Part shown: one piece after another, positions 14,271 through 42,945 of the stretch
Numbering within the stretch: the first letter of the stretch is position 1
Layout: each line of letters opens with the position of its first letter
Assembly: GCA_028386065.3 (NCBI GenBank)
Contig: JAKUCV010004308.1
Location: forward strand, 85,367-149,366
DNA from: Turnera subulata
Taxonomy: Eukaryota; Streptophyta; Magnoliopsida; Malpighiales; Passifloraceae
Direction: 5' to 3'
DNA: 64,000 nt
Position numbers and translations under genes: made by a program
The notes under the pieces: generated by a model
Databases searched by the model: none
What the model was told of the DNA's origin: nothing
The model's input: only the letters and a program-made list of their open reading frames with translations

Positions 14271-15410
14271 GGCATGGTTGTGCTATGCGTCCTCTACCAA
14301 GACTGGAGGTGGTTTTCGCTCCTCATACTGAGTGCCACACCTAAGAGTGATTCCGTTACATTGAACTTTTAGGTTAACCTCCGGTTTGCTCGGTAGTCTG
14401 ACAGAATTTCCCTAACTAACGCTAGCTTGAGCAATTTGACACTTGAGATTGTCAAACTCATCAGAAAGCCCAGAACGACTTTACGCTGCTCATCCATGAA
14501 GGATTTCAGAAGTGACTACAAGTCTTCTTCAGGAGCTTGCTGGTATGCCTTTTGAGGTTGTTTAGGAGGGAATCACAGAGGGAACCCTTCCATTTGGAAA
14601 TTGATTTGGCAGCTGAGGCTTCCAGGAGAAGTTAGGGTAGTCCCTACGACCTATGCTGAAGGTGTTTCAATAAGGGCCCCTCTAGACTCTTTGGTTTACG
14701 TAGCTATCTTGCTCCTGCTAAGGTTCCTTATATCTTCCCTTAATTGGGCATTCTGAATAGCTCCATTCACATTTAGCATGGGATTAGGAATTTCCTTTCC
14801 CATTCATATTCTTCAAAATTGCATCCATTTTTGCGCCTAGCATGTTGACCGCGCCAAGTTCAAATACTCCAGCTAGTTTTCTACCTGGTGCATCAACTGG
14901 CCATTCGAATTTGTTGCTCGCGATGTGTTCGAACGGATCGTATACAACTTCAACATTCGTGGCCAAAGCAATGCCTCCTACTGCAACATCAACATGTGCA
15001 TGGAGAGACTCATTCAGACCAGAGTAAAATTTTTCCCCAACCAGTCAATCTGGAAGGCCCTGCTTGGGGCACTTCCTAAATGCATCCTTGAATCTTTTCC
15101 ATGCATCATAGAAAGACTCATCAGTCTTTTGTTTAGATCCCATTATGTTGTTCCTGAGCGTCACGGCCTTGCTTGGTAGGAAAAACTTCTTTAGGAAATC
15201 TTTGGATATGGCTGCCCATGTAATGAATGTTCCCAGTGCTTGTGCGGTTAGCTATGTCTTCGCTTTATCCTTGAGCGAGAAGGGAAACAGATGTAGTCGA
15301 ATGGAATTCTCGGAGACTCCGTTGACTTTGATGGTGTCACATATCTTGAGGAAATCCTGAAGATGCGGATTAGGATCTTCAACAGAGGAGCCTCCAAAAG
15401 GATCGTTTTG
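14271..15410 (-). pseudogene. Athila-1 gag, C-terminal two thirds
   Basis: The frame at 15410-15252 has QNDPFGGSSVEDPNPHLQDF and GVSENSIRLHLFPFSLKDKA, the hallmark capsid segment of Athila-type Gag. Matching segments continue with frame changes to 14784 (KFEWPVDAPGR, then a coiled stretch to NMNGKGNS). Stops and shifts are numerous between 14784 and 14271. SIRE-B is inserted at 15410, right before QNDPFGG. The upstream part of gag resumes at 20295. Confidence 0.75.
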
Positions 15411-24742: not shown

Positions 24743-26036
24743 GATGCCCCACGTTGGTGAGTCTTTAAAACTTAAAGACGAAGCAATGCAAGAAAGGAAC
24801 AACCAAATTTGGATAACGAATGTGAGTGCTGTGGACCAATGGTTGGAGCGTCTCATGCTCCACCTCGAGAATCATCTCATCCCGAGGTTTGTGATTGACT
24901 CTTCTCATCTCTTGGGATTTTCCTGGTCCCAAGAGCTACCAGGAATCATCTCATCCCGGCATTTGTTTTGGGATTTTCCTGGTCTCAAAAGTCATTAACA
25001 AAGGATCATCTCACCTATGCTAACTAAGGATATTATCACCTTCCCGTGGGGATTTCGCCAGCTAAGGATATTATCACCCTCCTGTGGGGATTTTTGCGAA
25101 CTAAGGATATTATCACCCTCCAGTGGGGATTTTGCCAACTAAGGATATTATCACCCTCCTGTGGGGATTTTGCCAACTAAGGATATTATCACCCTCCCGT
25201 AGGGATTTTGCTAACTAAGGATATTATCACCCTCCCGTGGGGATTTTGCTAACTAAGGATATTATCACCCTCCTGTGGGGATTTTGCTAACTAAGGATAT
25301 TATCCCCCTACCATGGGGATTTTGCTAACTAAGGATATTATCCCCCTCCCGGGAGGATTTTGCCGACTAAGGTTATTATCGCCCTCCTGTAGGAATTTTG
25401 CTAAGTAAGGATATTATCGCTCTCCCGTGGGGATTTTGCCAACTAAGGATATTATCGCCCTCCTGTGGGGATTTTGCCAACTAAGGATATTATCACCCTC
25501 CTATGGGAATTTTACTAACTAAGGATATTATCACCCTCTCGTGGGGATTTTGCCAACTAAGGATATTATCACCCTCCCGTGGGGATTTTGCCTACTAAGG
25601 ATATTATCACCCTCCCGTGGGGGTTTTGCTAACAAAGGATATTATCATCCTCCCGTGGGGATTTTGCGAACTAAGGATATTATCACCCTCCCGTGGGGAT
25701 TTTGCCAACTAAGGATATTATCACCCTCCCGTGGGGATTTTGTCAACAAGAATCATCTCACCTGTGTTAACTAGGGATATTGTCACCCTCCCGTGAGGAT
25801 CTCATGTCATCTCAGGGGTGTTTGGATTTTCCTGGTCCCAAGAGCTAACAGGAATCATCCTGTGGTTCATCTACATCGTCTCGGTGCTCCTCTATGTCGG
25901 GACAATGTCGCTAGGATATCTACCCCTCAACCTCTACTTTAGGGGTATTTGCCCCTAGCGACTCCCATCAGTTCTACTTCTATCTTAGGGGCACCTGCCC
26001 CTGGTCTCGGCTGGTCTGGAACGAGCATGTTCGCGG
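24743..26036 (-). other. Tat-1 3' UTR
   Basis: Non-coding. It contains the 38-bp array (25022-25782), flanked on both sides by related CCTGGTCCCAAGAGCTA and AATCATCTCATCCC blocks (24880-24995, 25825-25862), and a short region rich in AGGGGYAYYTGCCCCT inverted repeats (25943-25992). Ends at target site cgcgg (26032-26036) where Copia-D begins. Confidence 0.75.
25022..25782. repeat. 38-bp tandem array, about 19-20 units
   Basis: Unit begins AACTAAGGATATTATCACCC and ends GGGGATTTTGCC. Unit starts fall at 25022, 25060, 25099, 25137 and then every 38 bp to 25745, with one 39-bp unit; a degenerate unit follows. Tandem arrays in the 3' UTR are known for Tat/Ogre elements and can seed satellites. 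The repeat happens to be open in one frame (25541-25774) but that is periodic noise, not a protein. Confidence 0.95.
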
Positions 26037-27579
26037 TGTAAGTATCCGGGCATGCAAATTGACAATCAAATGCAATAACATACGCAGCGGAAAAACCGGA
26101 TACACATGGAGGATCCAAGTGAAGGGTTGCTAAACCGAATAACAATTTTTACGTACTTGAATCAGTTGAGGTCTTTCACCCAACTGTATGGACGAATCAA
26201 CAAGAGCCGGATAGAAATCCCGCCCCTCTACGGTATCCACACGAACCGTGATAACTAGTTGGAATCGTCACACGATTACCAATCCGAGCACCCCCGAACT
26301 GATGTGCTAGCAGCAGGTTTCCGGGAGCTAGTGTTTGTGGTGTTTTTCTTCTTTCTCAAAGAAGGATGTGTGTAACCTGAAAAACTCTAAGCTCTCAAGT
26401 CTCTCAAGCTCTAGAAAAACAGACTCAAAGTCATGAATCAACAAGGCATAATCAGATTATGCTTAGTCTAATCCCACTAACAAAAGCAAGGGACAAAGTG
26501 GCCAACACCTTTGGCCAACATGATTAGCTTTTAGCTAATTATGTCTCCACTAACTCTTGGTGGGATTACATATCACATGGCAGTAATTATGGTTCAATGA
26601 ATCAGATATTTAGTGAACCAAACCAGCCCAAAACGACCCTGGTCCAACCACAGTCCAACCACGGTCCAACCACGGTCCAACCACACCTAGTCGAACCATG
26701 GTCCGACCACAGTTAAACCATCTACTCGAATCAACGATTCTAAGTGTGTGACCATGTAGGCACTTGTAACGTCTGGCAATAATTGTAAACTCATTTACAA
26801 TTATAAGCAAAGAGCGGCGTCTAGCAACACATCATTGCTACCCGAACGACAAGATCAGTACTGATTCAATATGCCTCGTAAGCATGTCATCGTCCCTTCG
26901 TCCCATTATCAAGATTAAACACGAGACTTGGAATATGTCATTCTCGCATATGTTTAATCTCGGTTTCTTGATCCTCGAGCTAACTGTGTAAAACGGATAC
27001 TAATGATGTCACCATATCATAGTCCGAGCACGGCCGTGCATTTACAGTTCAACTCTCTCAAGAAACAAACCAATAATATACCCGTTATATGGGTTGGACG
27101 AATCCCGTCTGGATCATACAAAACCCACTACATATTTATCATATACCCAATGATTACACTATGTCTACTCATTTACGAAATAACCAAGAGTAATATCAAA
27201 GTATACGACTCATATGTTGGGAACCTTGATGATCACAGGTCTAAGGACAATACATATAAGAACCACTAATGACAATCATATAACGTTCCATGTAGCGTTC
27301 TTATGTGGGTCGGTCTAGTCCACAAGTTCTCTAACTTGTACCCGTATGTAGAATTCATATCACATATAATTCTCAACATATGCTAGTCTTAATTTATTAT
27401 TACAACCCATCCATAATAATAATCCACTAGGGACATTTAAGAATATATAAATATTCTAGGGTTATAAATATATGCAAGCGTTTATCTCATAAACGATATT
27501 TATTGGAATAACCTTAATGTGTATACATGATTACAAATAAACATCCATTGATTGGCTTTTTGGGAATATTACACTAACA
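26037..27579 (-). repeat. Copia-D 3' LTR (1543 bp)
   Basis: Plus-strand TGTAAGTATCCGGGCATGC start and ATTACACTAACA end. Collinear with 41414-42945. It has four contiguous 11-bp units GGTCCAACCAC (26641-26684) where the other LTR has three (42018-42050). No coding sequence. Confidence 0.93.
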
Positions 27580-27642: not shown

Positions 27643-29376
27643 TCATGCTTCAGTCAACGGATCTGCAACATTGTTCTCAGATGGAACTCTACATAGTCTG
27701 ACATCGCCTCTATCTATGATCTCTCTAATAAGATGATAGTGTCAGAGAATATATTTGGATCTCTGGTGGTATGTAGGTTCCTGAGCCTGTGAGATTGTCC
27801 CATTGTTATCACAATAGAGCTCAATCGGACTCCCAATGCTCGGAACTACCCCAAGTTTAGTTACGAACTTTTGGATCCAAACAGCCTCTTTCACCGCATC
27901 TGAGGCAGCAATGTACTCAGCCTCGGTTGTAGAATCGGCAACTGTCTCTTGCTTTGAACTCTTCCAGTATACAACACCACCTCCAAGACAAAACACATAA
28001 CCTGACTGCGATCTAAAATCATCCATATCGGTTTGGAAGCTAGCATCTGTGTAGCCCTTTACAACAAGCTCATCCACGCTTCCGTAAACCAGGAATGCAT
28101 CCTTAGTCCTTCTCAAGTACTTAAGGAAGTTCTTAACCGTTGTCTAGTGACTCTCATCGGGATCAGCTTGATATCTGCTTGTGACACTCAAAGCATAAGC
28201 GACATCCGGTCGAGTACATAGCATGGCATACATAATAGATCCTATTGCAGAAGCATAAGGAATCTTACTCATCTGCTCTCTCTCCTTAGTCGTACTAGGA
28301 CATTGATTCTTTGAGAGAGCTATCCCATGTGACAAGGGCAAGAATCCTTTCTTGGAATCTTGCATGCTAAACCACTTTAACACCGTGTCAATATATGTAC
28401 TCTGACTTAGCCCGAGAAGCCTTTTGGATCTATCTCTATAGATCTTTATGCCTAACACATAGGCTGCTTCTCCTAAGTCCTTCATTGAGAAATTCTTCCC
28501 TAACCAAGCCTTTACAGACTGTAGTGTCGGAATGTCATTCCCAATGACTAGGATGTCGTCAATATACAACAACAAGAAAACAATAATGCTCCCACTAACC
28601 TTCTTATAAACACATGGTTCATCTTCGTTTTTAATGAAATCAAACTCTATGATCGTTTCATTAAAATGAAGATTCCAACTCCTAGAAGCTTGCTTCAATC
28701 CATAAATGGATCTCTGCAACTTGCATACCATATTGGCATTCTCTAGATCGGCAAAACCTTCAGGTTGTGTCATGTACACATCCTCTAAAAGATTTCCGTT
28801 AAGGAAAGCGGTTTTGACATCCATTTGCGATATCTCATAATCATAGTATGCCGCTATAGCCCATAGAATCCAAATGGATTTAACCATGGCAACTAGCGAG
28901 AAAGTTTCATCATAGTCAATACCATGAACTTGCTTGAAACCTTTCGCCACCAATCGCCCTTTATAGGTAATCACTTTACCATCCATGTCGGTCTTTTTCT
29001 TAAAAACCCACTTGCACCCTATGGGTTTTACCCCTTCAGGTGAATCAACCAAGGTCCATATCTTGTTTTGATACAAGGATTCCATTTCTGAATTCATGGC
29101 TTCCAGACACTTCTTAGAGTCCGGACCCATGATGGCGTGCTGATAAGAAGTGGGCTCATCCTCTTCTATGAGCATCACATCCCCCGTGTGAGTGATAAGA
29201 AATCCATATCTCTCAGGCTCATACCGAGTCCTAACCGACCTACGCGGTCCATGTGTTACAGGCATAGGATTCTCATCCACAACATCTTGGGGTTCCTGTC
29301 CTTGTTCCATCTCAGCCTCAATATCTCGAACTTCTTCGAGTTCTATTTTCCTCCTACTGATTCTTCTAGAAATAAA
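27643..29376 (-). pseudogene. Copia-D reverse transcriptase and RNase H
   Basis: Frame 29310-28144 (388 aa) holds the RT: KWVFKKKTDMDGK, motif A QMDVKTAFLNG and catalytic LLYIDDILVIGND (about 28560). A TAG at 28141 splits it from RNase H (28116-27742), with GYTDASFQTD and the [10 protein letters not shown] helix. A TGA near 27739 (from Arg CGA, by family comparison) interrupts the tail, which ends DPLTEA at 27643. A TAA at about 29375 separates RT from integrase. Catalytic residues are intact; a few point mutations kill it. Confidence 0.9.
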
Positions 29377-29767: not shown

Positions 29768-29772
29768 CAAGG

Positions 29773-31371
29773 TGTTAGAACTCGTGGTTCATTACAGGTT
29801 TTGATAATCGACAAACCAATGAAGCAAAAAGAAATGAAGTCAAACCAATCCTCAAGCAAAAGAAATTATTCAAGAGCAAAGGAACAAAGTGAATAAGCAC
29901 AAGATTGAAGAGCTAAGAAAGAAGAGCTAGATTCATAAATTGTACAAGGTATAACACTCAACTCTTCTAGGACATTGGCTCAAAATGAGATAAAATTTGC
30001 TCATGCATCACATAAACATATTTCAAACATCAAACTGTTTTTCTGTGTCAATAACATCGATGTTATATTTTACAACATCGATGTTCTGCCTTCCAACAAA
30101 TTTTCAAAACAAGCAGGAGATAAAATTTGCTCATGCATCACATAAACATATTTCAAACATCAAACTGTTTTTCTGTGTCAATAACATCGATGTTATATTT
30201 TACAACATCGATATTCTGCCTTCCAACAAATTTCCAAAACAGGCAGTAGGCAAATAACATCGATGTTGGCATCCTAAACATCGATGTTCTAGTGACCGTT
30301 GCTTTTAAAATTAGTCATAACATCGATGTTCCATATTGGTCAGTTTCACTTTGTTTTTGCCGAGCCAAAATAACATCGATGTTGCCTTCTAAACATCGAT
30401 GTTCCTACCTTCAAAGAAATTCCCAAAAATTTGCAGAAGGCAAATAACATCGATGTTGGCATCCCACACATCGATGTTCTCATGACCGTTGCATTTGAAA
30501 ATATCCTTTACATAAGCAAAACATCGATGTTGGATTTCATAACATCGATGTTCTTCAATGGTCAGCTTTAATCGTTTTTCACAGAAGCAAAATAACATCG
30601 ATATTGTGAATTAAACATCAATGTTCTCCAAGAATCAATTTTCATCTCATTTTCACAGGATCAAAATAACATCGATGTTTTAGTTACCGTTAGTCCAAAA
30701 ATTCAAATTTGCTGGACAAAACATCGATGTTGAGAATTAAAACATCGATGTTATGGCCGTTATTGCTGACAACTTTTAGCACCCACTATGTTTTGCTTAA
30801 AGCTTTTTCTTGGGTGGATTTCAAACGGCTCCATGACTTTTCAGAGCTACAAATTCAGCATTTTCAGCTCTGTTTCACAATCAATCAACTCTCTACATTC
30901 ATGCTATTCATTCATACATCCATTACAAATCTTAATTGAGCCAATATCCTTTTGAGGATTTGAGAGTTGCCTTTTAGAGCCTAATTCTGTATACTCATAT
31001 CTGCTCTTTGAGAGAGTTCTTTGTTTGAGTGATTGTGTTGTCATACACCTTAAGGGAGGTTAGTTCCCTTGTTGAGATTCATAGGAAGAGGGAATATCTT
31101 CTTGTGTGAGAAGTTTTGAAGTGAGGTATCTTCAAGCAGGAGATTAGAGTTTCTTGTGACTAGAACTCTAGGTTGTAAACGGTTTGTTAAGCACCCGTAA
31201 GCTTAACGTAGATAGTGGAATCTTCAAGAGAGTCTCTTGCTGGATTAGCTACACAAGTAGTGTGTGTGTGAACCAGGATAAATTATTTGTGTCCTTCAAT
31301 CTTTAAATTGTTTGTTTTATTCCGATAAACGCTATTCAACCCCCCTCTAGCGTAGGGCTATTGCTCTAACA
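29773..31371 (+). repeat. SIRE-E 5' LTR (1599 bp)
   Basis: Starts TGTTAGAACTCGTGG and ends TTGCTCTAACA. It is near-identical to the 3' LTR apart from four length changes: a 130-bp tandem duplication (29987-30246), two losses of 21 bp between paired palindromes (at 30319 and 30668), and a ~20-bp deletion near 31310. It should contain the promoter; no TATA element is claimed. Confidence 0.94.
30053..30752. repeat. Array of 12-bp palindrome AACATCGATGTT (18 sites)
   Basis: Sites start at 30053, 30074, 30183, 30204, 30256, 30277, 30319, 30372, 30392, 30446, 30467, 30520, 30541, 30594, 30614, 30668, 30720 and 30741. Fourteen are perfect and four have one change. Sixteen form pairs 20-21 bp apart; two are single. 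Intervening sequence is far less conserved than the palindromes. The function is unknown: a dimeric DNA-binding site or RNA hairpins (12-bp stem, 8-9-nt loop) are both possible. Confidence 0.95.
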
Positions 31372-31372
31372 A

Positions 31373-31385
31373 TTGGTAGCGGAGC
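31373..31385 (+). other. Primer-binding site of SIRE-E
   Basis: TTGGTAGCGGAGC, one base past the 5' LTR, identical to those of SIRE-B and Tekay-1. Confidence 0.75.
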
Positions 31386-33202: not shown

Positions 33203-36200
33203 GTATGCTTGAAGGCATCAAGTGTACTTTGGTACCTTGATAGCGGATGCTCCAAGCACATGACCGGAGAAGCATCCAAATTTTTGCAAATAAAGCCATC
33301 AAATGGAGGAAACGTTGTCTTTGGAGACAACAACAAAGGAAAGATCATCGGCATTGGCTCGGTTGGCAAAGATGAGTCTTCCTCCATTGATAATGTTTTA
33401 CTTGTTAAGGGTCTTAAACACAATCTCTTAAGCATAAGTCAATTATGTGATAAGGGAAATCGTGTAATCTTTGATTCCAAGTCATGCACCGTAGAACGTC
33501 TTAGTGATAATAAGATCATTCTACAAGGTGATAGAATTGACAATATTTATATGGTTAACTTAGAAGAGTCTTCATCAAAATTTTCAAAATGTCTAATGAG
33601 CAAAGAAGATGATATGTGGTTATGGCATCGTAGAGTAGGTCATGTTAATATGAAAATGCTAAACAAACTAGTTAATCAAGACTTAGTAGTTGGCATTCCA
33701 AAAATTAGATTTGAGAAGGATTCCATATGTGATGCATGTCAAAAGGGGAAGCAAGTGCGAGCTTCGTTTCATTCTAAAAACGTTGTCTCAACATCTAGAC
33801 CACTTCAACTTTTGCACATGGATCTCTTTGGTCCCTCACAAATTAAAAGTTTTGGAGGGAACTATTATGCTTTTGTTATTGTGGATGATTATACTAGATT
33901 CACTTGGACTTTATTCCTTACTCATAAAAGTGAAGCATTTGATACATTGAAGAGCTTTCTTAAGAAAGTTCAAAATGAAAAAGGTTGTTTAATTGCTTGC
34001 ATTAGAAGTGATCATGGAGGAGAATTTGAAAACAATCATTTTTCAGCTTTTTGTGATAAACATGGCATTGAGCACAATTTCTCGGCCCCTCGGACACCAC
34101 AACAAAATGGCATTGTTGAACGCAAAAATCGGTGTCTTGAGGAAATGGCAAGAACTATGCTCAATGAGGCTAATATTCCTAAGTATTTCTGGGCTGATGC
34201 AGTAAGTACGGCTTGCTACGTGTTAAACCGAGCAATCATTAGGCCATTACTCATGAAAACGTCCTATGAATTATACAAGGGAAGAAAACCAAATATTTCC
34301 CATCTTAGAGTTTTTGGCTGCAAATGTTTTGTGCATAATAATGGAAAAGACAATTTGGGAAAATTTGATGCAAAATCTGATGAAGGCATCTTTCTAGGCT
34401 ATTCATTGCGCAGCAAAGCGTATAGAGTTTTTAACAAACGAACCTTAAGTGTTGAGGAGTCCCCTCATGTTGTATTTGCAGAGAATAATACTCGCTCGAC
34501 GAGAAAGGATTTCTGTGATGATCTTGTAGGTACACTTGAGAAGATGTCATTGGATGATAAGGAAGAAAAAGATGTGCAAGACAACGTTTGGAAGAAAGGA
34601 GGCACTTCAACCGAACCTACACCTCAACAGGAAATGGAGACTGCACCTCAACAAGAAGAACCAAGCCCTATGGAGGACATGCAAGAAACAACGGTTGATA
34701 TCAACCAAGAATTACCTAGAGCATGGCCAGAGTCCAAAGATCATCCCCTTGACACGGTAATAGGTAATATCAACCGCGGAGTAAGTACTCGAAATTCTCT
34801 TAGAGATAACATAGGGCACATTGCATTTGTTTCACAAATTGAGCCTACAACTATTTCTGAAGAGATTAATGATGAACATTGGACCTTGGCCATGCAAGAA
34901 GAGCTAAATCAATTCAAACGTAATGATGTTTGGGAATTGGTTCCAAGGCCTATTGATCACACAATAATTGGCACAAAATGGGTGTTTAGAAACAAACTAG
35001 ATGAAAATGGCATAATAACTAGAAACAAAGCTAGGTTGGTAGCAAAAGGCTACAATCAAGAAGAAGGAATTGATTTTGAAGAAACATATGCACCTGTTGC
35101 ACGTCTAGAAGCCATCCGTCTTTTGCTTGCATTTGCATCATCTATGAATTTCAAACTTTATCAAATGGAAGTCAAAAGTGCATTTCTAAATGGCTTCATC
35201 CAAGAGGAAGTATATGTTGCTCAACCTCCTGGGTTTGAAGATTATACCTTTCCCAATCATGTTTTCAAACTCAAGAAAGCACTGTACGGTCTCAAACAAG
35301 CTCCCAGAGCTTGGTATGAACGTTTGAGTAAATTTCTTTTGGATATTGGATTCACTAGAGGGAAGGTTGACACCACCTTATTCATTAAGAACAAACATCA
35401 TAACATTCTTTTGGTTCAAATTTATGTAGATGATATTATTTTTGGTGCCACTAATGACTCTCTGTGCAAGGAATTCTCTAACATGATGACCAGTGAGTTT
35501 GAGATGTCCATGATGGGTGTGTTGACATTCTTCCTCGGTTTACTAGTCAAACAAATGAAGGAAGGAACATTCATCTCCCAATCCAAGTACTGCAAGGAGC
35601 TGCTCAAGCGCTTTGAAATGGACAACTCCAAGCAAATGGCCACACCAATGAGCACTTCCATACATTTAGACAAAGATGAGAAAGGTATTGAAGTTGACAT
35701 TAAGAAATATCGAGGTATGATCGGATCACTTCTTTACCTTACGGCAAGTAGGCCGGATATCATGTTTAGTGTTTGTTTATGTGCAAGGTTTCAATCTTGT
35801 CCTAAAGAGTCTCATCTTAAGGCTATAAAACGAATCATGAAATACCTTGTAGGCACTATAAATGTTGGCTTATGGTATCCAAAAGGCACTACACATCATC
35901 TTGTAGGATATTCAGACTCTGATTTTGCAGGCTGCAAATTAGATCGAAAAAGCACTAGTGGAACATGCCATTTGCTAGGTAGCTCTTTAGTCTCATGGTT
36001 TAGCAAGAAACAAGCTAGTGTTGCATTGTCTACCACCGAAGCGGAATACATTGCCGCTGGAAGTTGTTGTGCACAAATTCTTTGGATGAAACAACAACTA
36101 AAAGACTATGGTCTAAGCCTTAGTCATGTGCCTCTTAAATGTGATAACACAAGTGCCATAAGCTTGACCAAGAACCCTGTTCTTCATTCTAGAACAAAAC

Positions 36201-36373
36201 ATATAGATATTAGGCATCACTTCATTAGGGATCATGTTCTCAAGGGAGATGTAGCTATCGAATTTGTTGAAACAAAATCTCAACTAGCTGACATCTTCAC
36301 AAAACCCTTAGACAAAGAGTCATACTTTCGAATTCGAACTGAACTTGGCATACTTGACTCTACATTAATGTAA
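33203..36373 (+). CDS. SIRE-E pol polyprotein (protease-integrase-RT-RNase H), open
   Basis: Open from the TAG at 33200 to TAA at 36371, a complete Copia pol; no ATG lies near the start, so it must be expressed with gag. Residues from 33209: protease [10 protein letters not shown] (11-20); integrase zinc finger LWHRRVGH...CDACQKG; DDE residues in HMDLFGPS (~205), IRSDHGGEF (~268) and NGIVERKN (~303); RT with YVDDIIFG (739-742); RNase H with YSDSDFAGC (~902) and TEAEYIAAG; tail DIFTKPLD. Oddity: RT motif A is [11 protein letters not shown], where the family has MDVK, so a metal-binding Asp is Glu. Probably impaired in cis, otherwise intact. Confidence 0.92.
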
Positions 36374-36682
36374 TCCATGCATTCCTCACATATCTCTTTT
36401 TGAACATTACTGACTTGAGCGTCGGAGGCTCCCCTAATTTTGATTTGCAGGTACTCCCCTTCCTAAAGGCAACAAGATAGGGGGAACAAGATATGCTAGC
36501 ATTGTTATTGCGCATCATCATTTCTTTTTGCTAATGCCAAAAGGGGGAAGATAAAAAGAGAAGTATATGTATCAAGATAGGGGGAATCATGGGAATCATT
36601 ATTTGAAAAATATAGGGGGAATTGTTGTTATAAATATTGGCATATACTTCTAGTTGTTTGTCATTATCAAAAAGGGGGAAAT
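36374..36682 (+). other. SIRE-E 3' UTR with repeated PPT-like runs
   Basis: No ORF. At least five G-runs of the AGGGGGAA type (near 36478, 36542, 36580, 36612 and 36673) are spread through it; the last, AAAAAGGGGGAAAT, directly precedes the 3' LTR and is the likely PPT. Confidence 0.8.
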
Positions 36683-38211
36683 TGTTAGAACTCATGGTTC
36701 ATTACAGGTTTTGATAATCGACAAACCAATGAAGCAAAAAGAAATGAAGTCAAACCAATCCTCAAGCAAAAGAAATCATTCAAGAGCAAAGGAACAAAGT
36801 GAATAAGCACAAGATTGAAGAGCCAAGAAAGAAGAGTTAGATTCATAAATTGTACAAGGTATAACACTCAACTCTTCTAGGACATTGGCTCAAAATGAGA
36901 TAAAATTTGCTCATGCATCACATAAACATATTTCAAACATCAAACTGTTTTTCTGTGTCAATAACATCGATGTTATATTTTACAACATCGATGTTCTGCC
37001 TTCCAACAAATTTCCAAAACAGGCAGTAGGCAAATAACATCGATGTTGGCATCCTAAACATCGATGTTCTAGTGACCGTTGCTTTTAAAATTAGTCATAA
37101 CATCGATGTTCCCATTTGTAACATCGATGTTCCATATTGGTCAGTTTCAATTTGTTTTTGCCGAGCCAAAATAACATCGATGTTGCCTTTTAAACATCGA
37201 TGTTCCTGCCTTCAAAGAAATTCCCAAAAATTGGCAGAAGGCAAATAACATCGATGTTGGCATCCCACACATCGATGTACTCATGACCGTTGCATTTGAA
37301 ATATCCTTTACATAAGCAAAACATCGATGTTGGATTTCATAACATCGATGTTCTTCAATGGTCAGCTTTAATTGTTTTTCACAGAAGCAAAATAACATCG
37401 ATGTTGTGAATTAAACATCGATGTTCTCCAAGAATCAGTTTTCATCTCATTTTCACAGAATCAAAATAACATCGATGTTGTGTTTGAAAACATCGATGTT
37501 TTAGTTACCGTTAGTCCAAAAATTCAAATTTGTTGGACAAAACATCGATGTTGAGAATTAAAACATCGATGTTATGGTCATTATTGCTGACAACTTTTAG
37601 CACCCACTATGTTTTGTTTAAAGCTTTTTCTTGGGTGGATTTCAAACGGCTCCACGACTTTTTAGAGCTACAAATTGAGCATTTCCAGCTCTGTTTCACA
37701 ATCAATCAACTCTCTAGATTCATGCTATTCATTCATACATCCATTACTAATCTTAATTGAGCCAATATCCTTTTGAGGATTTGAGAGTTGCTTTTTAGAG
37801 CCTAATTCTGTATACTCATATCTGCTCTTTGAGAGAGTTCTTTGTTTGAGTGATTGTGTTGTCATACACCTTAAGGGAGGTTAGTTCCCTTGTTGAGATT
37901 CATAGGAAGAGGGAATATCTTCTTGTGTGAGAAGTTTTGAAGTGAGGTATCTTCAAGCAGGAGATTAGAGTTTCTTGTGACTAGAACTCTAGGTTGTAAA
38001 CGGTTTGTTAAGCACCCGTAAGCTTAACGTAGATAGTGGAATCTTCAAGAGAGTCTCTTGCTGGATTAGCTACACAAGTAGTGTGTGTGTGAACCAGGAT
38101 AAATTATTTGTGTCCTTCAATCTTTAAATTCCGCAATTATATCCTGCTCATTTTGTTTTATTCTGATAAACGCTATTCACCCCCCTCTAGCGTAGGGCTA
38201 TTGTTCTAACA
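36683..38211 (+). repeat. SIRE-E 3' LTR (1529 bp)
   Basis: Starts TGTTAGAACTCATGG, ends TTGTTCTAACA, and is followed by caagg. This LTR has the complete nine-pair palindrome array and lacks the 130-bp duplication of its partner. Confidence 0.95.
36963..37573. repeat. Complete nine-pair AACATCGATGTT array
   Basis: Pair starts: 36963/36984, 37036/37057, 37099/37120, 37173/37193, 37247/37268, 37320/37341, 37394/37414, 37468/37489, 37541/37562. Seventeen of 18 sites are perfect; 37268 reads CACATCGATGTA. Within-pair spacing is 20-21 bp, and pair-to-pair spacing is 73-74 bp except one of 63. So it is a diverged ~73.5-bp repeat whose palindromes alone stay conserved. Confidence 0.96.
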
Positions 38212-38216
38212 CAAGG

Positions 38217-39123: not shown

Positions 39124-39996
39124 CTATGATGCAGAGATAGAAATATTAGCTTCTATAACAAAAATACCTGAAGTGGAAGTCTTACTTCCCTTCTGTTTCT
39201 TCACCTCTTCAAGGTAAATAGGGTAGTTGCATTTCCAATGGCCAGGTTTATTGCAATGGAAACATTGTCCTTCCTTTGCAATACCACCTTTGGGTTTCAG
39301 CACATGGGAACAAGAAGATGCACATGCACCAAACTTTTTGGCACATTTCTTCTTCTTGTTAAACTTGGCTTTACCCTTTCCTTTGACTTTTCCAACCATC
39401 AAAATATTGTTGGATTTGTTTGCCTTCATTTGTTGCTCAACTGTTCCTAAAATGTTAAGCAACTCAGACAAATATTTGTCAAGATGATTCATATTGAAAT
39501 TCATGACAAATTGGCTGTAACTATCCGGCCACGATTGCAGGACTAGATCAACAGCCAACTCCTTTTGCAAAGGAAAACCTAGACCCTCAAGGCTCTCAAT
39601 GTATCCATTCATTTTGAGCACATGAGGTCTCACCGGTGATGACTCAGCCATCTTGCATTGGAACAATGCCTTAGAGGTCTCATGCCTTGCTTGCTCTTCA
39701 AAAAGCATTTTTAGATGTTCGATCATATCGAACGCACCCAAGGTCTCATGTTGCTTCTGAAGCTCAGAGTCCATGTTAACAAGCATAAGGCATTCAACAT
39801 CCAATGCATCATCAACAAGCTTCTTGTAAGCATCTCTTTTCGCCCTAGAAGCATTAGGCGCCGGTTCATTTGGAACTTGCCCTTCAAGGACATACAACTT
39901 CTTTTCTTGTTTGAGGACTATCCTCAAGTTGCGATACCATTTTAAGAAGTTATTCCCATTGAACTTTTCCTTCTCAAGGATAGATTGCAGTGACAT
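39124..39996 (-). CDS. Copia-D gag (290 codons open)
   Basis: ATG at 39996 gives MSLQSILEKEKFNGNNFLKW, a UBN2-type Copia Gag, followed by capsid-like helices (WPDSYSQFVMNFNM) and a Lys-rich linker. The zinc knuckle reads CFHCNKPGHWKCNYP: the usual spacing HX4C is broken because the final Cys is Tyr, while a Cys stands where Arg is typical. Both changes fit C-to-T type mutation. Open to the boundary with protease but likely defective in RNA packaging. Confidence 0.85.
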   Translation of the reverse strand: MSLQSILEKEKFNGNNFLKWYRNLRIVLKQEKKLYVLEGQVPNEPAPNASRAKRDAYKKLVDDALDVECLMLVNMDSELQKQHETLGAFDMIEHLKMLFEEQARHETSKALFQCKMAESSPVRPHVLKMNGYIESLEGLGFPLQKELAVDLVLQSWPDSYSQFVMNFNMNHLDKYLSELLNILGTVEQQMKANKSNNILMVGKVKGKGKAKFNKKKKCAKKFGACASSCSHVLKPKGGIAKEGQCFHCNKPGHWKCNYPIYLEEVKKQKGSKTSTSGIFVIEANISISAS

Positions 39997-40550: not shown

Positions 40551-41111
40551 AACATCGATGTTTAAACTTGAACATCGATGTTTTGAGAATCTGATTCTCC
40601 CAACTATTTGGCCGAGGCTCAAGAACATCGATGTTCAACACTTTAACATCGATTTTTTGAGTAACTTGAACAACAAACTATTTGGCAGTAGCTCAAGAAC
40701 ATCGATGTTGAACTCTTAAACATCGATGTTTTGAGAATTCTGAAAGTTCAAGATTTTGGCAGTAGCATTTTAACATCGATGTTGGAATGTCAACATCGAT
40801 GTTTGAACTTCTGGAACCCAAGAACATCGATGTTGGAATCTTGAACATCGATGTTATGAGAGTTCTGGAACTTCAAGCCAATTTGGCCGAGCTCAAACAA
40901 CATCGATGTGTAACTCTTAAACATCGATGTTTTTGAGAGTTTTGCATGAGAACATCGATGTTGGTCACACAACATCGTTTTTTTGAACGTTCAGCCGAGG
41001 CTAAACTTCATCAGAACATCGATGTTTGTCACACAACATCGATGTTGTGAAGGTTCGGCCAAGGCTAAACTTAATGCTAACATCGATGTTTGTCTCACCA
41101 ACATCGATGTT
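40551..41111. repeat. Nine-pair AACATCGATGTT array in Copia-D leader
   Basis: Pairs at 40551/40571, 40624/40644, 40698/40719, 40772/40792, 40823/40844, 40899/40920, 40951/40971, 41015/41035 and 41079/41100. Fifteen of 18 are perfect; 40644, 40899 and 40971 vary at the 3' end. Within-pair spacing is 20-21 bp; between pairs it is 51-76 bp. Spacers share only scraps (TTTGGCAGTAGC, GCCGAGGC) with the SIRE-E array. Confidence 0.95.
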
Positions 41112-41400: not shown

Positions 41401-41412
41401 GCTCCGCTACCA
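41401..41412 (-). other. Primer-binding site of Copia-D
   Basis: Minus strand TGGTAGCGGAGC directly follows the 5' LTR, similar to those of the other Copia elements here. Confidence 0.75.
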
Positions 41413-41413
41413 T

Positions 41414-42945
41414 TGTAAGTATTCGGGCATGCAAATTGACAATCAAATGCAATAACATACGCAGCGGAAAAACCGGATACACATGGAGGATCCAAGTGAA
41501 GGGTAGCTAAACCGAATAACAATTTTTACGTACCTGAATCGGTTGAGGTCTTTTGCCCAACTGTATGGATGAATCAGCAAGAGCCGGATAGAAATCCCGC
41601 CCCTCTACGGTATCCACACGAACCTAGATAACTAGTTGGAATCGTCACATGATTACCGACCCGAGCACCCCCGAACTGATGTGCTAGCAGGAGGTTTCCG
41701 GGAGCTAGTGTTTGTGGTGTTTTTTTTCTTTCTCAAAGAAGGATGTGTGTAACCTGAAAAACTCTAAGCTCTCAAGTCTCTCAAGCTCTAAAAAATCAGA
41801 CTCAAAGTTATGAATCAACAAGGCATAATCAAATTATGCTTAGTCTAATCCCACTCACAAAAGCAAGGGACAAAGTGGCCAACACCTTTGGCCAACATGA
41901 TTAGCTTTTAGCTAATTATGTCTCCACTAACTCTTGGTGGGATTACACATCACATGGCACAAATTATGGTTCAATAAATCAGACATTTAGTGAACCAAAC
42001 CAGCCCAAAACGACCCTGGTCCAACCATAGTCCAACCATGGTCCAACCACACCTGGTCGAACCATGGTCCGACCACGGTTCAACCATCTGCTCGAATCAA
42101 CGATTCTAAGTGTGTGACCCTGTAGGCACTTGTAACGTCCGACAATAATTGTAAACTCATTTACAATTATAAGCAAAGAGTGGCGTCTAGCAACACATCA
42201 TTGCTACCCGAACGACAAGATCAGTACTGATTCAATATGCCTCGTAAGCATGTCAACGTCCCTTCGTCCCATTATCAAGATTAAACACGAGACATGGAAT
42301 ATATCAATCTCGCATATGTTTAATCTCGGTTTCTTGATCCTCGAGCTAACTGTGTAAAAAAGATACTAATGATATCACCATATCATAATCCGAGCACGGC
42401 CGTGCATTTACAATTCAACTCTATCAAGAAACTAACCAATAATATCCCCGTTATATGGGTTGGACGAATCCCCTCTGGATCGTACAATACTCACTACACA
42501 TTTATCATATACCCAATGATTACACTAAGTCTACTCATTTATGAAATAGCCAAGAGTAATATCAAAGTATACGACTCATATGTTGGGAACCTTGATGATC
42601 ACAGGTCTAAGGACAAAACATATAAGAACCGCTAATGAAAATCATATAACGTTCCATGTAGCATTCTTATGTGGGTCGGTCCAGTCCACAAGTTCTCTAA
42701 CTTATACCCGTATGTAGAATTCATATCACATGTAATTCTCAACATACGCTAGTCTTAATTTCTTATTACAACCCATCCATAATAATAATCGACTAGGGAC
42801 ATTTAAGAATATATAAATATTATAGGGTTATAAATATGTGCAAGCGTTTATCACTTAAACGATATTTATTGGAATAACCTTAATATGTATACATGATTAC
42901 AAATAAACATCCATTGATTGGCTTTTTGGGCATATTACACTAACA
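41414..42945 (-). repeat. Copia-D 5' LTR (1532 bp)
   Basis: Collinear with 26037-27579 and ends ATTACACTAACA at 42945, followed by cgcgg. Differences are scattered substitutions and one fewer GGTCCAACCAC unit. Confidence 0.93.

Follow-up and report, generated by a model that had tools for sequence, protein, structure and literature searches.

Why does the LTR of a retrotransposon in Turnera subulata carry the same 12-bp palindrome, AACATCGATGTT, 18 times over, in pairs set at regular distances, when the sequence between the copies varies? The palindromes lie in a stretch of 64,000 nucleotides (hereafter the window), in which two nested elements, F1 and F2, hold three such arrays:

29773..31371, plus strand: 5' LTR of the Sirevirus-type element F1, found by self-comparison, with TG...CA ends and CAAGG at 29768-29772
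31375..31385, plus strand: PBS-like site GGTAGCGGAGC adjoining the F1 5' LTR
33209..36373, plus strand: F1 pol ORF (integrase and reverse transcriptase, by Pfam)
36479..36680, plus strand: five copies of the polypurine tract AGGGGGAA, the last followed by AT and then the TG of the 3' LTR
36683..38211, plus strand: 3' LTR of F1, with the CAAGG target repeat next to it at 38212-38216
26037..27579, minus strand: 3' LTR of the outer copia element F2, pairing with 41414-42945 at 94.7%
41414..42945, minus strand: 5' LTR of F2, found by self-comparison
39124..39996, minus strand: F2 gag ORF (PF14223)
28144..29310, minus strand: F2 reverse transcriptase ORF (PF07727)
36963..37573, no strand assigned: array of nine palindrome pairs in the F1 3' LTR, 18 sites, 17 perfect
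30053..30752, no strand assigned: matching array in the F1 5' LTR, 18 sites, 14 perfect
40551..41111, no strand assigned: third array, in the F2 5' leader, 18 sites with at most two mismatches, 15 perfect

F1 is a Ty1/copia element flanked on both sides by the 5-bp target repeat CAAGG and nested inside F2, an older minus-strand copia element. The F1 insertion is fairly young, as its LTRs differ by only 28 substitutions in 1467 aligned bases; those of F2 differ by 71 in 1532. The five best homologues of F1 pol are 73-78% identical to it, and no relatives were found in the viral contigs searched. A similar nesting was seen at another locus (L020:4225 to L021:2608), where a further Sirevirus-type insertion interrupts the F2 reverse transcriptase gene at a different position. 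The window also holds ~19 tandem copies of a 38-bp unit (25018-25747), which contain no palindrome sites, and a match to the plant snoRNA snoR71 (15055-15161, 56.6 bits), the rest being rich in retrotransposons.

A site scan bore out the first-pass annotation of the 3' LTR array to the base: between 36963 and 37573, 280-891 bp into the 1529-bp LTR, there are 18 copies, of which 17 are perfect and one, at 37268, reads CACATCGATGTA. Within a pair the two starts are 20 or 21 bp from each other, and successive pairs start 73, 63, 74, 74, 73, 74, 74 and 73 bp apart, as had been described (73-74 bp with a single exception of 63). Chance is ruled out as the origin of these sites, since the window contains 54 of them at up to two mismatches, whereas 100 shuffles average 3.16 and never exceed 7. 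Nor is the feature peculiar to a single LTR, as is evident from the arrays in the 5' LTR, in the F2 leader (with the PBS-like site, 41401-41411, on one side of it and the start of the gag ORF, 39996, on the other) and elsewhere in the genome; its initial framing as an LTR feature was too narrow. An Rfam search returned no family match in the array and one plant snoRNA elsewhere in the window, and a plasmid search with the 3' LTR gave no similarity.

Across the 518.7-Mb assembly there are 31,022 perfect pairs whose palindromes are separated by 6-12 bp, whereas a reversed-pattern control gives 15. Pairs separated by 18-20 bp, i.e. three turns (30-32 bp start to start), occur 3,666 times (control 1), while a separation of 10-17 bp (22-29 bp start to start) is found 765 times (control 0). 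The first and last of these ranges overlap at 22-24 bp start to start; among 50 listed matches of the 22-29 bp class, 47 are at 22 bp, two at 23, one at 29 and none at 24-28. No site with up to two mismatches was present in five 10-kb stretches adjacent to array stretches (L025-L029, three of which contain N runs) or in the 8-kb stretch L030. Outside this genome, in searches from which records very near the source genome may be left out, a pair with 7-10 bp between its palindromes was found in one stretch of viral_contigs and in five stretches among 257 Gb of prokaryote genomes (genome_contigs). Of these stretches, L001 has one single pair within 701 bases, and L002-L006 have one pair each by listing.

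We then asked which elements carry the arrays, using 14 stretches around the first listed places (L011-L024), a sample in contig order rather than a random one. Arrays of at least four sites are present in the window and in 13 of the 14 stretches, the exception being L019, and there are 24 arrays in total. They belong to the following carriers:

F1: Sirevirus-type elements, array in the LTRs
F2: the outer copia family, array in the leader (window, L014, L020)
F3: another copia clade, array near the 3' end of the LTR (L012, L013, L018, and L017 by similarity)
F3b: a short non-autonomous relative of F3 (L013)
F4: a single locus (L024), array just after the PBS

Further F1-type arrays are internal. 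In L016 they lie between pol and the 3' LTR; in L022-L023, where no pol was detected in the element, they precede the 3' LTR. The position of the array thus differs by family, being in U3, in the internal region, at the LTR end or in the leader. In a reverse-transcriptase tree (midpoint-rooted, with long branches), F1, F2 and F3 form separate clades with starred support, and F1 groups with eight near homologues from other sources, in a tree drawn without named reference lineages. F4, known from its single locus, is of the Ty3/gypsy type, as judged by a PF03732 gag encoded in its internal region (28.8 bits, cut-off 24.1); an F4-related LTR in L030 has no array within that stretch. One short non-autonomous LTR element with arrays (L013:7679-8836) contains an ORF segment of 240 aa in which a DEK_C domain was recognised (39.9 bits); it may be a fragment captured from a host chromatin gene.

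The PBS-like sites in these stretches share a peculiarity of their own. The PBS-like pattern GGTA[GT]C[AG]GAGC occurs at 12 sites in the window and L011-L024, 11 of which read GGTAGCGGAGC and one GGTAGCAGAGC; those of the window are at 1606, 16365, 31375 and 41401 (minus strand), and the others lie in L012-L024. The usual form in plants is GGTATCAGAGC, and none of the 12 sites contains either this sequence or TATCAGAGC. Such a change suggests a genome-wide shift of the primer tRNA or its acceptor stem.

The regularity first noticed in one LTR proved to be helical phasing. Among 234 neighbour distances of 12-110 bp in the window and L011-L024, 120 are 20-21 bp, six are 18, 19 or 22, eight are 30-32, 23 are 41-45 and 73 are 51-55, with single distances at 58, 63, 74 and 109 bp; there are none at 23-29, 33-40 or 46-50 bp. 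In the 24 arrays, 227 of 231 spacings lie no more than 2.5 bp from a multiple of 10.5 bp, where 52% of the integers from 18 to 80 would be expected to do so, although some of the spacing is inherited through tandem duplication and sites with up to two mismatches were admitted. When similar spacers are collapsed, the long spacers still give R = 0.75 (n=63) or 0.74 (n=46) at 10.5 bp (Rayleigh p ~4e-16 and ~2e-11, respectively), their best-fitting period being 10.9 bp. Phasing holds within each family separately, since the in-phase spacings number 99/103 in F1 LTRs, 21/21 in F1 internal arrays, 41/41 in F2, 41/41 in F3, 13/13 in F3b and 12/12 in F4, so that the four spacings out of phase all come from F1 LTRs.

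Changes in spacer length follow the same rule. Where F1 long spacers differ by at least 3 bp, the change is near a whole number of turns in 15 of 21 cases, as opposed to 2 of 25 in the LTR tail (p 1e-5), a test which overlaps with phasing itself in that some aligned rows pair a short with a long spacer. Length changes of more than 2 bp affect 21 of 52 long spacers in the array and 25 of 109 in the LTR tail (p 0.03); support for constraint comes from the phase of length changes only, and not from their rarity. A W/S peak at 10.5 bp was not found in the long spacers, which is of no help to a wrapping model.

The claim that palindromes are conserved and the spacers are not holds between insertions. 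In a pool of four same-family comparisons, hand-picked for independence from 54 rows, 23 of 504 palindrome positions differ, versus 252 of 938 other array positions (ratio 0.17, p 6e-29), a roughly six-fold lower rate of change (<5% vs ~27%), to be read with the fact that palindrome-anchored alignments favour palindrome matches. The remaining inter-element comparisons give ratios of 0 to 0.42 and were left unpooled, as some of them join different families via the palindromes alone. Within the site, positions 2-11 (ACATCGATGT) vary by 0-4% each and the outermost bases by 9-11% (245 sites). Of 42 distinct 9-bp spacers, 39 have A or T as the central base (p 2.7e-6). A divergent Sirevirus-type element (L015:4652-5190) has a related asymmetric variant, AACATCGATGTC, at 10 of its 16 sites.

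The two LTRs of one insertion differ only through mutation after insertion. In seven such pairs, recognised by position, PBS, PPT or junctions, palindromes changed at 12 of 691 positions and the rest of the array at 46 of 1667 (ratio 0.63, p 0.19), which is not a significant difference. One of these pairs, L020/L021, lies beside a 2.1-kb N run and is identified as a single insertion by the interrupted F2 reverse transcriptase on its flanks and by TAAAC at both junctions. It shows the opposite trend, with 0/60 changes in palindromes and 14/135 elsewhere, and without it the ratio rises to 0.91 (12/631 vs 32/1532). The evenness of change after insertion is therefore not tight. Because spacers diverge between insertions while palindromes change little, and no significant difference is seen after insertion, selection has preserved the palindrome and its phase during replication of the elements. 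Dead copies decay more or less evenly, and only lineages that kept the palindrome went on replicating. The test proposed with the original description, namely whether palindromes elsewhere mutate like spacers or are randomly spaced, thus gave neither result, and the lack of a significant difference after insertion is as expected for dead copies.

Could the array be a neutral minisatellite, in which slippage or template switching between identical 12-mers expands and homogenises a functionless palindrome? Relative to the 3' LTR array, that of the 5' LTR carries a 130-bp duplication and lacks two palindromes, each of them lost together with one spacer. These copy-number differences suggest recombination or slippage between 12-mers, in keeping with a minisatellite, and tandem units are indeed visible. 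Duplication of whole units, however, would preserve spacers as well, yet these differ by ~27% and palindromes by <5%; moreover, F1 and F2 share the palindrome, although their spacers have no local similarity above shuffles. The between-insertion constraint and this lack of local similarity rule out plain tandem duplication, and we regard a functionless minisatellite as very improbable.

The sharing of one site by several families could also reflect recent transfer by retrotransposon RNA recombination or nested insertion. This concerns the origin of the arrays and is compatible with protein binding. Between-family spacer resemblance was tested for F1 against F2: mean global similarity exceeds that of shuffles (z 5.1 on the same strand, 3.8 on the opposite), but mean local alignment does not (z -0.3 and 1.2), and the global signal may reflect base preferences common to the flanks of the sites. 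The array also sits in different places, in U3, internal region, LTR end or leader. We consider recent transfer doubtful and, even if it took place, the constraint on palindrome and phase would stand.

The sites, their phasing, the constraint during replication and the sharing between families have all been shown. In our opinion this is probably a phased array at which a dimeric DNA-binding protein docks and which serves several retrotransposon lineages. It would act as a cis-regulatory platform of tandem operator pairs for a sequence-specific protein, each palindrome (core ACATCGATGT) holding one dimer. Paired dimers would sit two helical turns apart on one shared face of the DNA, and spacings of 3-7 turns would hold the following pairs on that face. 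Identical self-complementary sites, two turns apart on one face with an A/T step between them, are what two cooperating dimers would be expected to need. The location of the arrays, be it U3, LTR end or leader, suggests a role in controlling transcription or chromatin state. Unrelated LTR-retrotransposon lineages would thus place the site near the promoter, the LTR end or the leader, and there it would most likely recruit one host nuclear factor, an activator or chromatin opener rather than a silencer or insulator, which enables element transcription. The dimeric protein proposed in the first-pass annotation hence fits the constraint, the phasing in all sampled families and the A/T preference midway, the protein itself being putative.

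The other reading offered there, that each pair folds as a hairpin with a 12-bp stem in the transcript, has lost ground. Such hairpins could yield miRNA-like small RNAs or act as a packaging or dimerisation signal, and an RNA or small-RNA role was proposed earlier for the palindrome-rich LTRs of maize Sireviruses. RNA of the array has a much stronger fold than shuffled sequence (z -11.8, 0 of 20 shuffles), the F2 and F4 arrays in the leader 3' of the PBS and the F3 array beside the PBS are probably transcribed, and the available text of PMC5311732 describes palindrome-rich LTR regions of maize Sireviruses as hotspots of small-RNA mapping. At the same time, single-stranded RNA gives no reason for helical quantisation of the spacings, and a hairpin requires complementary arms, not one self-complementary sequence in all arms. 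Only two of 32 left-arm changes are matched by a compensating right-arm change (116 pairs), a weak test in which many changes possibly arose after insertion. We think it unlikely that an RNA role explains the arrays in place of protein binding, but the two could coexist, given how unusually well the array RNA folds.

A dimeric protein might alternatively be encoded by the retrotransposons, with the site as an anti-silencing address, like that of VANC on VANDAL tandem motifs. By this analogy, anti-silencing is a serious alternative for the job of the putative bound protein, the motif here being likewise dense, noncoding and set within changing repeats. Nevertheless, a non-systematic Pfam search of those window ORFs that reach 250 aa (six in all) gave no additional DNA-binding domain, and a host factor is the simpler explanation for one site common to copia and gypsy lineages, making an element-encoded binder quite unlikely in our estimation.

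If the binder is a host factor, retrotransposons would be exploiting, and possibly soaking up, one regulator to an extreme degree, with 31,000 perfect pairs over 519 Mb. Tentatively, and with somewhat less than even confidence, we propose that one dimeric host protein became, by convergence or exchange, the common regulatory input of unrelated LTR-retrotransposons across the copia/gypsy divide within one plant lineage, and that the perfect pairs, >31,000 in number, may titrate or spatially organise it. The spacing rule in unrelated elements is precise enough for predicting the geometry of the protein.

A literature search for the 10-mer, to which subscription papers were mostly inaccessible, returned no paper on the motif by title. 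Clustered protein-binding sites in the leader or U3 of LTR elements are known from the Su(Hw) sites of the Drosophila gypsy insulator and from the U3 boxes of Tnt1; these have other motifs and fewer copies, and are not known beyond one family each. Bousios and co-workers reportedly found in 2016 many palindromes in LTR regulatory regions amid highly variable surrounding sequence, and are said to have read them via small RNAs. Both their LTRs and ours are palindrome-rich with variable surroundings. Phasing at multiples of 10.5 bp, as observed here, goes unmentioned in the available text on the maize Sirevirus palindromes (PMC5311732).

VANC proteins, as far as the available text of the respective papers goes, target short motifs in fast-changing noncoding tandem repeats, where motif density matters (PMC5735166). 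This is similar to our arrays, which are also dense in a short motif within changing noncoding transposon repeats, and the VANC motif is protein-bound (PMC5735166, PMC10398659). That system differs in belonging to VANDAL elements, in its YAGTATTAY motif, in its element-encoded binder and in having separate motifs for each VANC (PMC5735166, PMC10398659).

The nearest likeness is found in the palindromic RM boxes of 13 Sireviruses (Bousios et al. 2010, PMC2829016), conserved LTR palindromes described without a binder. According to the available text of that paper, which also mentions Tnt1 box I and a Copia 5' UTR activator, RM boxes are present in at least eight copies, for the most part highly conserved within an element, and usually occupy the upper LTR half; they begin 200-400 bp after the PPT/LTR junction, and some elements also have them in the linker domain (PMC2829016). 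The window array agrees, being a dyad-symmetric palindrome in 18 copies in the upper LTR half. Its ATCGAT core differs from the usual CGG-CCG core and is common to the RM of tobacco Tnd-1, ACAATCGATTGT in eight copies, which was treated there as an exception (PMC2829016). The Sirevirus PPT octamer is AGGGGGAG, with an A-ending form in Tnd-1 and ToRTL1 (PMC2829016); the F1 tract AGGGGGAA likewise ends in A. As in Sireviruses, it is repeated in identical copies clustered ahead of the 3' LTR, with AT and then TG after the last. F1 and Tnd-1 also both lack a TATA motif, there being no TATA[AT]A in the F1 3' LTR. In place of the Sirevirus PBS TATCAGAGC (PMC2829016), F1 has TAGCGGAGC, a change not unique to it. 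The F2 junction reads AGTGGGAG, with no AGGGGGA[AG] found near it, and in F3 no AT precedes the TG. RM boxes were reported as absent from classic non-Sirevirus elements (PMC2829016), whereas the site described here occurs also in other copia clades and in a gypsy-type element. The initial impression that no described element has this arrangement must therefore give way as far as palindromes in Sirevirus LTRs are concerned, and stands for their pairing and helical spacing, neither of which is described in the available text of PMC2829016. We conclude that the closest known counterpart is the Sirevirus RM box, a kind to which the window feature belongs, and that, relative to the literature searched and to the text of it available, strict pairing, helical phasing and a spread into non-Sirevirus copia and gypsy-type elements extend beyond the RM description.
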